Both the position numbers and the translations under genes were made by a program. Below are positions 15,867 to 47,387 of a stretch of 64,000 bases of DNA, piece by piece. The notes beneath the pieces were generated by a model. The model did not search any database. It was given only the letters and a program-made list of their open reading frames with translations, and was not told where the DNA came from. Every line of letters starts with the position of its first letter. Within the stretch, counting starts at the first letter, position 1. The DNA is from Halobacteriovorax sp. GB3 (GTDB lineage: Bacteria > Bdellovibrionota > Bacteriovoracia > Bacteriovoracales > Bacteriovoracaceae): assembly GCF_028649655.1 (NCBI RefSeq), contig NZ_JAQSLN010000005.1, positions 125,409-189,408 of the forward strand, in the 5' to 3' direction.

Positions 15867-15897
15867 AAAAAAAAAGGCCCCTATAATGATAGGGGCC
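15867..15897 (-). terminator. Rho-independent terminator of flagellin copy 1
   Basis: A nine-base-pair stem (15889-15897 with 15876-15884, four-base loop) is followed on the minus strand by nine T (15875-15867). It lies 32 bases after the stop codon. Confidence 0.92.
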
Positions 15898-24838: not shown

Positions 24839-25265
24839 AGATCAACTTCAAAACATGATGAATGAAATCATGGAAAAAGAAGCGCCAAAAAAAGCAATCA
24901 AATCAAAAGCGGCAAGAGAAATTTTGAATATTGAAAGAGAGCTTCGTGACAGTGGTGTTGCGGCTGAGTTTGATGTTTTAATTTCTGAGCTTATACCAGA
25001 AAAGGCGAATGACAAATTTGGTAATGGTGGATTTCCAAGAGACAAATACTCTCTTTCTTGGAAAGTTCTAGAAAATGGTCCTTTCCGCCTTTTCCTAACT
25101 AATGTTCAGTATAATAATTCAAAATTATTAATCGAATGTCCCGAATCATTTCAAGATGACACATTCAAGTACTTAAATCGTTTTGTTACGATGATGGCCC
25201 AATCGTTCAATGATAAATTGAAAAATGTTGTTATTGAAGATACAGAAGAATTGGAAGAAGAGTAA
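24831..25265 (+). CDS. Hypothetical protein, 144 residues
   Basis: No known family recognised. The protein begins with GTG inside the last codons of the zinc-finger gene (MNKDQLQNMMNEIMEKEA) and has a helical, charged N-terminal part (1-60), a beta-rich middle with WKVLENGPFRLFLTNVQY and an acidic tail ending ELEEE. No signal peptide or membrane segment. It is coupled to the zinc-finger gene by an eight-base overlap and lies just before the terminator shared with ftsZ. The overlap and sensible composition support it as a real gene. Confidence 0.65.
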   Translation: MNKDQLQNMMNEIMEKEAPKKAIKSKAAREILNIERELRDSGVAAEFDVLISELIPEKANDKFGNGGFPRDKYSLSWKVLENGPFRLFLTNVQYNNSKLLIECPESFQDDTFKYLNRFVTMMAQSFNDKLKNVVIEDTEELEEE

Positions 25266-25304
25266 AAAAAAAGCGCCCCGTGTTGCACTAGCTCAGGGGC
25301 GCTT
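25264..25304 (-). terminator. Terminator between convergent genes, strongest for ftsZ
   Basis: A nine-base-pair stem (25271-25279 with 25296-25304) is followed on the minus strand by nine T (25272-25264, two shared with the stem). On the plus strand the T run is short. It ends the ftsZ transcript and may also act on the opposite one. Confidence 0.87.
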
Positions 25305-42102: not shown

Positions 42103-43326
42103 ATGAATGCTCACGTAAAAGACAGATTTAGCAACAAACTTTCATCCCTTAAACTGGCCTTTGATCAACACACGGCTAGAAAGGATCGCTATAAGAAAAT
42201 TTTAGCGAAAGCTGCTCACACGTCTTCACATGAAATTCTAGAATCTGTTTTTGATTTAAAAAATGGAATCTCTCCAACAGATTTATTAAATATAGGGAAA
42301 CAGCTAACGAATGCTGGTACTTGGATAGGGCACTCTTATTTAAGATATCTCATTTCTCATGCGAACTTCAAACATGATGGAAACAAACCTTCAAGATCTG
42401 AAGAAGAAGAGGTCATTCTCGATCATCTTATAAATAATATACCCCTTAATGAGAGATACTCACACTCTGAGATATTCAAGACTATATATAATGAAAGAGA
42501 ATTCCAACATTACTACCCGAACTATAAATCTCCTCTTAGAATTCCAAAAACTAATATAACGATGGTATTAATTTCGGGAGTTTTTAACGAAATATTTTCA
42601 ACAGCGGCCTTTGAAAGAGGTGCAGCTCATATGAGTGAAAACCTTGGAGTTAAGTATTTCGCTGCTGATGTTCACGGTTCAAAAGATAGTGATCACAATA
42701 GTGAATTAATTAAAGAGCAATTGGATCAATATATTTTAGAAAATCCTAATGAGAAGCTTTGGCTTTTTTGTTTTTCTAAAGGTGGTGTAGATAGTTTAAG
42801 GTTTTTGAATCGATATTCAGATTTTGCCAATCGCCATGTAGTTGGATTCTCCGCTGTTGCGAGTCCTATTCTTGGTTCAGACCATATAAATAATAAGCTC
42901 ATCTCTACGATTAGTAAGATTCATGAACTCAAGGATTCAAAAATCTATCACCTCATTAACGAAAGAGGTGGGATTCTTGCAAAGGCCTTTCAAGACTCAC
43001 TTTCTTCAACACATCAAAGAGTGTGGTTTCGAAAGAATCATAAGACCCTGCCTAAAAATCCTTTCTACTCAGCAGTTGCCTTTGAAGCAAGCTGGTATGA
43101 AAGTCATTTATGGATGATGCTAACGAAAATAATTTTTAAGAGTGCAAAGTCTAATGATGGAATAGTTGATGCTGAAAATGCTTTATTTCCAAGCTATTTT
43201 AATGGACTAAATTTAGGAATTTTAAAAGGGCACCATTTGGTAGGAACGAGATCGAGCTTCTATTGCCAAGAAGCTCTATTGGAATCTCATATTATCATTT
43301 TTAAGTATCTAGGGCTTCTCGACTAG
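42103..43326 (+). CDS. Alpha/beta-hydrolase (lipase-like) protein
   Basis: A 407-residue protein whose C-terminal part (about 150-405) looks like an alpha/beta hydrolase. The nucleophile elbow is CFSKGG with likely Ser225 (a G-x-S-x-G variant with Phe in the first place), an acid in [10 protein letters not shown] (Asp352) and a histidine in KGHHLVGTR (His377 or His378), in proper order for a catalytic triad. NDGIVD before the final His is seen in lipase-like and triacylglycerol-lipase families. Residues 1-140 are helical and unassigned. No signal peptide. The ATG lacks a ribosome site. It is convergent with mglA, overlapping it by four bases. Substrate unknown; a lipase/esterase role is inferred. 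Confidence 0.7.
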
Positions 43327-43913
43327 TTAAGTCCACCCTTCAAATTCATAAGAACTAATTTAGAAATACTCTTAAGTGTTTCAAAGACGCCTTCACCAGT
43401 TACAGCACTTGCTTCGAACTCAGGAAAGTCCCACTTATTGATTTTAGTTCTCAAATCTTCAATTGAAGCAACGTTTGGAAGATCTCTCTTATTCCATTGT
43501 AAAACCACAGGAACTTTTTCAATTTCATAACCTTGTTCAATTAAATTTTTCTCAAGTCCTCTAAGACTTTCAAGGTTTGCTTCCATTCTTTCTACTTGAG
43601 AATCTGCAACAAACACAATTCCATCAACACCTCTAAGAATAAGCTTCCTTGAAGCTTCATAGAACACTTGCCCAGGAACTGTATAGAGATGAAATCTTGT
43701 TTTAAAACCTCTGATTTCTCCAAGATCTAAAGGTAGAAAATCAAAGAATAGAGTTCTTTCATTTTCTGTATTTAAAGTAATCATTTTACCTTTAGAATCA
43801 CCACTTGTTTTCTGATAAACATATTGAATATTAGTCGTCTTACCACCAAGACCTGGTCCGTAATAAACGATCTTACAATTCACTTCTTTTGTGTTGTAAT
43901 TTACAAAAGACAT
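43323..43913 (-). CDS. mglA: MglA-type small GTPase (polarity/gliding motility switch)
   Basis: A Ras-like GTPase of 196 residues. The P-loop is GPGLGGKTT (19-27); the switch region has [21 protein letters not shown], where the TVPGQVFY variant marks the MglA family; the base-specificity motif is QWNKRDLP. In Myxococcus MglA sets the leading pole for gliding and pilus motility, and in Bdellovibrio it is needed for prey entry. Both are knowledge of the family. It is the last gene of the dnaX-ybaB-recR-roadblock-mglA series, 11 bases after the roadblock-like gene, which may encode its GTPase-activating partner (MglB role). Confidence 0.93.
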
Positions 43914-43924
43914 CTTAGCTCCCT

Positions 43925-44425
43925 TTAGTTACCAAAAGAAAATAGGTTATCCATTTCATCATCTGTGATGTCTTCAAATAGATAATCTTCTTTTAGAGAC
44001 TCTTCCTCACCATTAAAAACTTCATCCAAGAAAAGTTCTAATTCATTGCGAATAATTCTTAGCTTAGACTTCATGGCCCCAGGATTAACCATATTCCTAT
44101 AGATAATTCCCAATTGATATTCATCTCCCTTATGCATAACAGGTAGAAGATAAATACCGCGAGAAGAAGTATCAAAACTCAGTCTAAATATATCGGATTC
44201 ATCATCGGCAGGAAGAAAGTCAACGAGACTTCTCGCCGCTTGCCACACTCCACTTACGAGTGCGCCAATAGAGTCTTTTTCGATATCATCAGAAAAAGAT
44301 GATTGAGAATAGAGAGGAACTCCATCTCTTCTTGCAAAGATTATAGCAAAGTCATCTAACCAATCTAACTGAACAACATTTTCAAAATAATCCTCAATCG
44401 AGGATAAGAACTGATCCTTGTTCAA
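43925..44425 (-). CDS. Roadblock/LC7-like protein, possible MglB-type partner of MglA
   Basis: A 166-residue protein starting with TTG (AAAGGAG seven bases upstream). Residues about 15-130 fit a roadblock/LC7 fold by pattern: a helix, then [18 protein letters not shown] (strand-turn-strand), a long helix with [19 protein letters not shown], and strands with [19 protein letters not shown]. The acidic tail (130-166) is rich in Glu and Asp. Roadblock proteins such as MglB are GAPs for MglA-type GTPases and usually sit next to them, as here (11-base gap). The fold call is from pattern reading, not a search. True MglB is shorter-tailed, so it may be a lineage variant. Confidence 0.7.
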
Positions 44426-44443: not shown

Positions 44444-45037
44444 TTAGAGTTTTTTTCTGTTTTCCAAAGCTTTAGTAATGGTCATTGCATCTAAATGCTC
44501 TAATGATCCACCCATTGGAATACCGAATCCAATACGATCTACAACAACATCATCAGGAAGAACTTGTCTTAAATAAGAGCAAGTTGCATCCCCTTCAACA
44601 GATGGGTTAACTGCTAGAATGATCGTTTTAATGGACTCATCTAAAACTCTTTTTACAAATCCATCTATATCTAATTCTTCTGGTCCAATCCCTAGTAGAG
44701 GGTTTAGCACTCCACCAAGAATATGATATTTTCCATCAAATTGCCCACTTCTCTCGATTGCAAGTAGGTCACTAACGGACTCAACAACACAGACAATTTC
44801 AGATTCCATACGCCCAGAGTTTGAACAAACAGAGCAAAGCTTTTCATCTGAAAACATTCCGCATTTTTCACACTTAAGAATTTCATTCAATCCCTGTAGT
44901 GCCTTTGCAAAGTCTTCAATCTCGTTAGAGTTCCATTTCGTAAGAAAAAGCACTTGTCTCAGTGCTGTCTTCTGACCGACTCCCGGAATCTTTGAGAATT
45001 GATCAACTAAATTATTAAGTCCGCTAGGTAATTCCAA
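44444..45037 (-). CDS. recR: Recombination mediator RecR
   Basis: RecR works with RecO to load RecA at gaps. The 197-residue protein has the helix-hairpin-helix KIPGVGQKTALRQVLFL (16-32), the zinc finger CEKCGMFSDEKLCSVC and the Toprim domain with CVVESVSDLLAIE, YHILGGVLNPLLGIGPE and LAVNPSVEGDATCSYL, ending RIGFGIPMGGSLEHLDAMT. The order dnaX-ybaB-recR is one of the best-conserved bacterial neighbourhoods. Confidence 0.96.
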   Translation of the reverse strand: MELPSGLNNLVDQFSKIPGVGQKTALRQVLFLTKWNSNEIEDFAKALQGLNEILKCEKCGMFSDEKLCSVCSNSGRMESEIVCVVESVSDLLAIERSGQFDGKYHILGGVLNPLLGIGPEELDIDGFVKRVLDESIKTIILAVNPSVEGDATCSYLRQVLPDDVVVDRIGFGIPMGGSLEHLDAMTITKALENRKKL

Positions 45038-45046
45038 AATACGATC

Positions 45047-45361
45047 CTAGAAAAGACCTGGGATATTTAATCCACCAGTAACTTTCGACATTGCATTAGA
45101 AACCATATCTTGAGATTCTTTAACAGCTTGATTAACGGCTGTTTGAACGAGTTCTTCTAGAGTCTCAATATCAGTTGGATCAACACATTCCTTATCTAAT
45201 TTAAGTTCGATAATTTCTTGTTTACCATTGATTTTGATTTTAACCATTCCTCCACCAGAAGAAACATCAAGCTCTCTACTCTCAAGTTCTTTTTGAAGTG
45301 TAGAAATCTTTTGCTGCATAACTTGTGCTTGTTTCATTAGGTGATTCATATTCTTGGCCAT
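45047..45361 (-). CDS. ybaB: YbaB/EbfC nucleoid-associated protein
   Basis: A 104-residue DNA-binding protein of the YbaB/EbfC family: helical N-terminus (MAKNMNHLMKQAQVMQQKIS), central beta-strand core with VSSGGGMVKIKINGKQEIIELKL, and a C-terminal helix with AVNQAVKESQDMVSNAMSKVTGG. It forms a tweezer-like dimer in characterised members and may affect recombination or replication, as its constant place between dnaX and recR hints. Confidence 0.93.
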   Translation of the reverse strand: MAKNMNHLMKQAQVMQQKISTLQKELESRELDVSSGGGMVKIKINGKQEIIELKLDKECVDPTDIETLEELVQTAVNQAVKESQDMVSNAMSKVTGGLNIPGLF

Positions 45362-45385: not shown

Positions 45386-47194
45386 TTATTTCTTATCAAC
45401 AATTACTTTATCTACTTTAGCACTAAAAATATCTTGAGCATTTTGAATGATAGGATCATTTAAAATCTCATCTCTTTTATTATCGTGCACTTTTTGTTCT
45501 TCTTCCTCTTTAATAGCTGCTCTTGAAATGAAATTTGCCTCATCAGCTTTTTCATCATCAAGCAGTGTTATTGAAAGATGAACATCGTCGCATCCAAAAT
45601 ATTTTTTTAAGTTATCAACAAGTTTCTTTTGTGACTCATCTTCAATCATATAATCGTAGAAGACCTTGCCATCAACAGAATAAGCAAAATCAACTGATAC
45701 TTGTAGCTCTGTCACATTGATAGGTGTTACAAGGTTTCCTTGCTCAAGATTAGACGCAGCAGCAGGTGAAATTTTTGCTAAAGACTTTAAAAATCCTTCC
45801 CAAGATTTTTCACCACTTTCCAACACGACTTCTTCAACTGGAGCCACAACTGGTTGATCAACTTGAATTTCTTCTGTTGATTCTTCTTCCATCGCCTCTT
45901 GAATTTTATGACGAATATCAATACTTGGTGTTGCTTCCTGCTCAGTGACTTCCTCAACAGGAGAAGGTTCTTGCTCTTTAACTACATTATTCTCAGTAGA
46001 AGGATTCACGTCTGAGACCTCAACTTGAGGTGTACTTTCAATGGCCTCATCAGTTGATAGTGTTTCTTGCTTTTCAACAGGTGAATTATTTAGAGTTTTT
46101 TTTTGAGAGTCAGCTGTTGCTACTTGACCACTCAATGTCGCTCCTTCAGTAAAAAAAGATCTTCTCAAAGAGATCTTCTTAACAACTATCTGTAACGATT
46201 TAGGCGGTAATAAAGAATCAAGAATCCAATTTGCATCCTTAGCAAGAGATTCATACACCCATAGAGCTTCTGCTTGTGAAATTCCTTCAGGGAGTTGATG
46301 ATCTTTAATTTGATCAAAGAGCTTAGAAAGAATTGAAGATAAAATATTTTTAGTACTTATATTTTCTGAAATAAACTTTTCTACCAGATCACATGCTTGT
46401 TGGTCTTGACCAGCAAACATATTGTTTATCAAAGTAAGAACCGCGCTTGTCTTAGCGATACCAAGGGCCATCGCGACAACTTCTTCGCTAACGACCTTGT
46501 CTTCACTAAAACTTAAAACTTGATCCACTAAAGAAAGTGTATCTCTAAACGAGCCATTACCTTGGATACAAATAGTTTGAATAAGTTCATCATTTTCAAA
46601 TTGAATGCCTTCTTTTTCGGCAATCTTTTTCACATGTCCTACTAAGTCTATAAGTGTTGCATTTCTAAAATCGAAACGCTGACAACGAGACAAAACTGTT
46701 CCGAGTAATTTTTCGGGTTCAGTAGTCGCTAAGATAAAAACAGCATGCTTAGGTGGTTCTTCCAACGTTTTTAAAAGTGCATTGAACGCACTCGTTGAAA
46801 GCATGTGAACCTCATCAATGATATAAACTTTATATTCACCAACAGTAGGCAGGTATTGAACGTTACTAATTAAATCTCTAATGTCATCTACTGAGTTATT
46901 TGAAGCACCGTCAATCTCAATGACGTTCATTGAAGATTGAGAATCAAAATCTAAGCAAGAATTACAAGTTCCGCATGGATTAGAATCTTCCTGTCTCTGC
47001 TCACATCTTAAGGCCTTGGCAAAAATACGAGCAATTGTCGTCTTACCAATCCCTCTTGTTCCAGTAAGAATATATGCATGTCCAATCTGATTTCTTTTAA
47101 GAGCGTTTTGAAGTGACTTAGCAATATGAGATTGCCCTACAACTTCTTCAAATTTCTTTGGACGCCATTTTCTTGCAAGAACTTGATATGACAT
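45386..47194 (-). CDS. dnaX: DNA polymerase III subunits tau/gamma (DnaX)
   Basis: The clamp-loader ATPase. The full 602-residue frame is tau. The AAA+ core (1-350) has Walker A GTRGIGKTT (45-53), a zinc module C64...CGTCNSC (74-80), the DEVH box IIDEVHML and sensor 1 LATTEPEKL. Residues 365-450 are a Glu/Pro/Thr-rich linker and 460-602 the C-terminal tau part. Codons 364-367 (Q-K-K-T) contain a run of nine A. One extra A gives K-K-N-S-K-stop and one fewer gives K-K-L-stop, so slippage in either direction yields a 367-369 residue product consisting of just domains I-III, equivalent to gamma. It is preceded by the SRP RNA gene and followed by ybaB-recR. Confidence 0.96.
   Translation of the reverse strand: MSYQVLARKWRPKKFEEVVGQSHIAKSLQNALKRNQIGHAYILTGTRGIGKTTIARIFAKALRCEQRQEDSNPCGTCNSCLDFDSQSSMNVIEIDGASNNSVDDIRDLISNVQYLPTVGEYKVYIIDEVHMLSTSAFNALLKTLEEPPKHAVFILATTEPEKLLGTVLSRCQRFDFRNATLIDLVGHVKKIAEKEGIQFENDELIQTICIQGNGSFRDTLSLVDQVLSFSEDKVVSEEVVAMALGIAKTSAVLTLINNMFAGQDQQACDLVEKFISENISTKNILSSILSKLFDQIKDHQLPEGISQAEALWVYESLAKDANWILDSLLPPKSLQIVVKKISLRRSFFTEGATLSGQVATADSQKKTLNNSPVEKQETLSTDEAIESTPQVEVSDVNPSTENNVVKEQEPSPVEEVTEQEATPSIDIRHKIQEAMEEESTEEIQVDQPVVAPVEEVVLESGEKSWEGFLKSLAKISPAAASNLEQGNLVTPINVTELQVSVDFAYSVDGKVFYDYMIEDESQKKLVDNLKKYFGCDDVHLSITLLDDEKADEANFISRAAIKEEEEQKVHDNKRDEILNDPIIQNAQDIFSAKVDKVIVDKK
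46094..46105 (-). promoter_or_regulatory. Homopolymer slippage site in dnaX
   Basis: Nine consecutive A on the coding strand (46104-46096) directly after domain III. Stops appear in both other frames within two to four codons. Length and position resemble the transcriptional-slippage site of Thermus dnaX. Confidence 0.6.
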
Positions 47195-47283: not shown

Positions 47284-47387
47284 AGCGGCAGCCGATCCAA
47301 CAACACAATACCTCTACGGCTACCGTTGCTTCGTTCCCGACCTGGCGGAGTTCACCAAGAAAGCACTTGTTGCGGATCGACTACCGA
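47284..47387 (-). ncRNA. ffs: Signal recognition particle RNA (4.5S type)
   Basis: The minus strand contains the SRP Alu-less core: GCCAGGTCGGGAACGAAGCA (47347 downward), where the family has GUCAGGUCCGGAAGGAAGCA, with a GGAA-like tetraloop region. The ends (47374-47386 with 47286-47298) pair over 13 base pairs allowing G-U, giving a single long hairpin of about 100 nt, as in bacteria with the short 4.5S form. A strong promoter lies exactly upstream. The RNA with Ffh directs membrane proteins to the translocon. It is encoded just before dnaX, an arrangement found in other bacteria too. The exact 3' end is uncertain. Confidence 0.95.

Follow-up and report, generated by a model that had tools for sequence, protein, structure and literature searches.

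The dnaX gene of Halobacteriovorax sp. GB3 carries nine consecutive A's on its coding strand close to the point where the clamp-loader core of its product ends, which raises the question of whether this single gene makes both the tau and the gamma subunits of DNA polymerase III, and by what mechanism. The window analyzed here is a stretch of 64,000 nucleotides from this genome (NCBI RefSeq assembly GCF_028649655.1, contig NZ_JAQSLN010000005.1, positions 125,409 to 189,408), and the features of the locus are listed in Table 1. The coding strand around the run reads GCT GAC TCT CAA AAA AAA ACT CTA AAT AAT TCA CCT, and the two shifted frames remain open for 3 codons and 1 codon after the run before a stop is reached. 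The TAA that closes the frame with one extra A also ends the product of a -1 ribosomal shift. The nine A's at codons 364-367 and the two shortened products (369 aa through K-K-N-S-K-stop with one extra A, and 367 aa through K-K-L-stop with one A missing) had been reported in a preliminary description of this DNA, and all are present in the sequence; the range given there, 46094-46105, does include the run, but it is too wide by a base or two, since the A9 spans 46096-46104.

Table 1. Features of the dnaX locus (window coordinates).
Feature	Position	Strand	Basis or remark
dnaX, encoding DNA polymerase III subunit tau (602 aa at full length)	45386..47194	-	ORF
Domains I-III, residues 1-353, ordered clamp-loader core common to tau and gamma	46136..47194	-	AlphaFold2, superposition
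Disordered linker, residues 354-461, A9 near its start	45812..46135	-	pLDDT mostly <50
Tau-only C-terminal domain, ordered, residues 462-598	45401..45811	-	pLDDT block means 77-96
A9 tract, codons 364-367 (CAA AAA AAA ACT)	46096..46104	-	sequence
TAA for one A missing (Q K K L stop; predicted 367-aa gamma)	46090..46092	-	sequence
TAA for one A extra (Q K K N S K stop; predicted 369-aa gamma)	46086..46088	-	sequence
Small SRP RNA gene, upstream of dnaX	47287..47382	-	Rfam RF00169, 58.9 bits
ebfC/ybaB, next after dnaX	45047-45361	-	same direction as dnaX
recR, after ebfC/ybaB	44444-45037	-	same direction as dnaX

The full-length product matched NCBIfam TIGR02397 and NF004046, both over the cut-off, as well as the Pfam families DNA_pol3_delta2 and DNAX_ATPase_lid. 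In an AlphaFold2 model built from 53 DnaX sequences, block means of pLDDT were 83-98 up to residue 350, and values fell below 50 from residue 354. Residues 1-356 superposed on residues 1-371 of E. coli gamma in solved clamp-loader structures (Z up to 36 and 37-38% identity across the E. coli gamma/tau matches). The A9 lies 11 codons beyond residue 353, the last of the ordered core, just past clamp-loader domain III, as the preliminary description had it, at 60% of the length of dnaX. Because order ends at residue 353, the predicted gamma would keep domains I-III whole, together with about 15 further residues, but neither the C-terminal domain nor the greater part of the linker. This tau-only domain had no Pfam match, and the lists of Foldseek and VIA matches for DnaX were taken up by the ATPase part. 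Past recR, a 166-aa protein and a small Ras-like GTPase (MglA-like) are encoded in the direction of dnaX (43323-44425, minus strand); an NCBIfam search with the 166-aa protein gave no match, and the two are probably an mglB-mglA pair.

Judging from the sequence comparisons given below, the A9 is very probably a programmed transcriptional slippage site through which one dnaX gene makes tau and gamma. RNA polymerase would gain or lose A's on the run; mRNAs with 9 A's (or 9 plus or minus 3) would be translated into tau, and all other mRNAs would reach a stop 1 to 3 codons past the run and yield gamma. The two products would then stand in some tau:gamma ratio, and gamma would presumably enter clamp loaders.

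The run might also be no switch at all, if A-runs simply arise from the AT-richness of the genome and the many Lys residues of the linker, and slippage on them is tolerated as noise. Synonymous shuffles of the window gene reach at least nine A's in the region in 29% of cases, and the case for a selected run therefore rests on the family of relatives and not on this gene alone. On the other hand, the genome itself argues against such noise. The window contained three A9 words, compared with 16.2 expected from dinucleotide shuffles, and the other two (15867-15875 and 25264-25272) are non-coding and lie beside GC-rich, terminator-like hairpins; the one at 25264-25272 overlaps a stop codon. Genome-wide, 113 A9 words occur on both strands (3.62 Mb). 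A 0.46-Mb sample of the genome contained 400 genes by crude calling (ORFs of at least 90 aa, longest first); their sense strand held 175 A7, 40 A8, 4 A9 and no longer runs, while synonymous-codon shuffles within the same genes gave 187 A7, 77 A8, 29 A9 and 16 longer ones. Runs of at least nine A's were found in 4 of the 400 genes, against a mean of 44.5 and a minimum of 34 in the shuffles, and were avoided 11-fold in the sampled coding sequence; such a run is thus an event of about 1% for any given gene of this genome, and dnaX has its own right at the tau/gamma boundary. Baranov et al. take avoidance of such runs in coding sequence as a sign that the polymerase slips on nine A's (PMC1088944), and for the polymerase of this organism it would be an indirect sign.

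Conservation was assessed in 116 genomes with dnaX from the same family, which we infer to be Bacteriovoracaceae. Their dnaX loci were located by tblastn, 112 genes were long enough for scoring, and a run was scored when at least nine A's occurred within 55 codons past the equivalent of residue 340. The family assignment follows from a Bacteriovorax MAG (L081), which was the nearest record with a name and was placed within genus g14 of this set. Runs of A9-A12 past domain III were present in 52 of the 112 genes and 31 of the 45 genera, mostly 12-24 codons past the residue-340 equivalent, and 14 genera were wholly without one. Past domain III (18.8 kb in the 112 genes), the counts were 4 for A8, 18 for A9, 29 for A10, 3 for A11 and 2 for A12, whereas the remaining coding sequence of the same genes (165 kb) gave 78 A7, 21 A8, 4 A9 and no run of ten or more; the length spectrum past domain III is therefore bimodal, in contrast to the steady fall-off elsewhere in ninefold more sequence. 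Runs of at least nine A's at the site were counted in 49 genes. When synonymous codons were shuffled in these genes (300 trials), the number was 21, with a maximum of 32; this null is conservative, since the shuffles retain the run's Lys codons. All three codon phases are used (14, 19 and 19 runs), and the phase changes within genera g3, g16, g59, g60 and g6, where the run stays and the flanks hardly align; the run is located in the unconserved linker of these proteins.

The stops behind the run provided further evidence. In the run-bearing genes of the family, a stop followed within 5 codons in 92% of cases in the frame with one extra base and in 84% in the frame with one base missing. The corresponding values were 52 and 39% in the linkers of the same genes, and 42 and 31% at the same place in genes without a tract. 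With one gene taken per genus, 22 of 31 genera had a stop within 5 codons in both frames, compared with 14% after A6-A8 runs elsewhere (binomial p about 6e-13, with genera not fully independent). The run and both sets of stops thus show signs of selection in the family, as far as sequence comparison can tell. Many relatives manage without a run, as would be expected if no switch existed, but the bimodal lengths, the excess over synonymous shuffles, the enriched double stops and the differing phases, together with the avoidance of such runs in this genome, make tolerated noise a distinctly unlikely account.

The preliminary description had read the run as a tau/gamma slippage switch and had proposed a check of relatives for a conserved A-run with near stops. 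The persistence of the run at this place in 31 of 45 genera, its three phases and the near double stops all support the switch as the probable reading. The run is not universal: 60 of the 112 scored genes lack it. On the tree of domains I-III, the presence or absence of the run required 16 changes, at least 7 of them forced by well-supported branches, whereas shuffled labels needed a mean of 37.7; the state of the run is therefore inherited but labile. Sister genera that mostly or entirely lack the run were g24, g5, g23 and g32, along with most of g14 and g12; of these, g12 and g14 are close genera in which most members lack it. No evident substitute frameshift site was found in the tract-less relatives, in which in-frame slippery heptamers and T-runs were scattered with no common place.

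The choice between transcriptional slippage and ribosomal frameshifting had been left open in the preliminary description. Gamma could arise, as in E. coli, from -1 frameshifting of the ribosome on A_AAA_AAA, with the long run merely supplying the heptamer. This heptamer does lie in frame within the window run, and it is contained in every run of at least nine A's; the -1 frame terminates after N S K, and Lys tRNA was found as a single species with the anticodon UUU (two genes), as in E. coli, where the sole Lys tRNA has been linked to ribosomal shifting (review, PMC5009743). However, no Shine-Dalgarno sequence was found in the 19 bases before the window run, and a similar motif preceded only 1 of 52 family runs, compared with 8.5% in the control. 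Downstream structure at the window run gave z values of 0.82 (66 nt) and -0.49 (96 nt), values below -2 were obtained for 4 of 51 run-bearing genes and 5 of 52 controls, and no upstream structure beyond control was detected at the family runs. Furthermore, run lengths in the family are concentrated at 9-10, more than the 6-7 A's that a ribosomal shift would need, and enrichment is equally strong for the stop in the missing-base (+1) frame and for the -1 stop, the former being unexpected under -1 ribosomal frameshifting. One relative, L202, even requires a shift in the opposite direction. These comparisons favor transcriptional slippage, and ribosomal frameshifting appears improbable as the source of gamma.

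L202 (G087) is one of two relatives in which the template would encode gamma directly. Its dnaX has A11, one A more than the nearest congener (A10), and its zero frame ends after 365 codons from the aligned start; L162 (G080) has A9, one A fewer than most of its congeners (A10), and its frame ends after 375 codons. In both genes the tau frame is intact and open to its end in another frame, so that tau would require one additional base in L162 and one base fewer (or two more) in L202. Close congeners of both have A10 and a single dnaX ORF, and the window gene is likewise not of the two-ORF kind, as tau is one ORF of 602 codons. Sequencing errors in the homopolymer might account for the run lengths of L162 and L202. 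If the run were a contingency tract, replication slippage would turn tau off in part of the population, and the differing lengths among congeners (A9, A10 and A11) and the two genomes out of frame for tau would be consistent with such phase variation. However, tau is expected to be essential, and because its frame is still open in both genes, tau is presumably still expressed there; moreover, 9-10 A's are short for contingency loci. Phase variation therefore seems scarcely credible, and slippage during transcription remains the favored explanation. Gene finders will call two-ORF members such as L162 and L202 broken.

Transcriptional slippage in dnaX is of a known kind; what is new is its extent in this family, the drift of phase and the repeated absence of the run. 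Tentatively, and perhaps a little short of an even chance, the dnaX run could be regarded as a frame-indifferent element, in which phase and length drift and many lineages do without the run, a change of one A in some species swaps which of gamma and tau is encoded and which arises by slipping, and the two-product outcome is kept. The comparative data and the double-stop enrichment would extend gamma production by slippage to most genera of a family of Bdellovibrionota, and a small sample would extend it to most Bacteroidota looked at. What gamma is for is disputed, and its purpose can be tested by natural comparison, since some close genera have the run and others lack it.

This small sample consisted of 80 named loci, which were the best matches listed and not random, and 18 loci from other families of the phylum. 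An A9-A10 run at the end of domain III was present in 18 of the 25 dnaX genes from Bacteroidota among the matches listed (L098, L099, L139, L152, L155 and others), and at least nine A's occurred at the same place in all three genomes representing another family of this phylum, as well as in single records of Chlorobiota (L108), Planctomycetota, Clostridia and UBP6 among the matches listed. L108, L136, L143 and L148 carry the run at the end of domain III and are of the two-ORF kind, with gamma in the zero frame. In the non-subscription literature searched, no report of slippage was found for a Bdellovibrio-like dnaX.

The outcome proposed here, gamma and tau from one gene, is the same as in Escherichia coli, in which the ribosome makes a programmed -1 shift on A_AAA_AAG, a site of six A's and one G, stimulated by an upstream Shine-Dalgarno sequence and a downstream stem-loop, neither of which was found at the window run. 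Caulobacter crescentus reaches this outcome without recoding, by proteolysis of tau to gamma (PMC5009743), and the tract-less relatives could, by analogy, use a Caulobacter-like proteolysis. From 12 genera (Chlorobium and others), GeneTack predicted 17 two-ORF dnaX genes that carry A7-A10 runs and would work by transcriptional realignment (PMC3711429). These resemble the window gene in having an A-run at the gamma/tau junction, and L162 and L202 share their layout; the window template, on the other hand, encodes tau and would give gamma by slippage, which is the reverse of the two-ORF genes. The survey of Baranov et al. left out truncating cases, as these offer no new coding sequence to compare (PMC1088944), a limit that the double-stop test gets round. 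The closest likeness is to Thermus thermophilus dnaX, in which transcriptional slippage on A9 is established (PMC1088944, PMC5009743): both genes have a sense-strand A9 in a single ORF with near stops in both shifted frames, and in both the truncated product is, or is predicted to be, gamma. One dnaX gene from another family of the window's phylum, L047 (G049), has A9 and A10 close together at about codons 507-519 of 547, near its 3' end and nearer to the Thermus position. Slippage is proven in Thermus, whereas we infer it for the window gene. The Thermus run lies seven-eighths of the way through the gene (PMC1088944), whereas the window run is directly past domain III; the gamma predicted here would therefore, unlike that of Thermus, lack nearly the whole linker.
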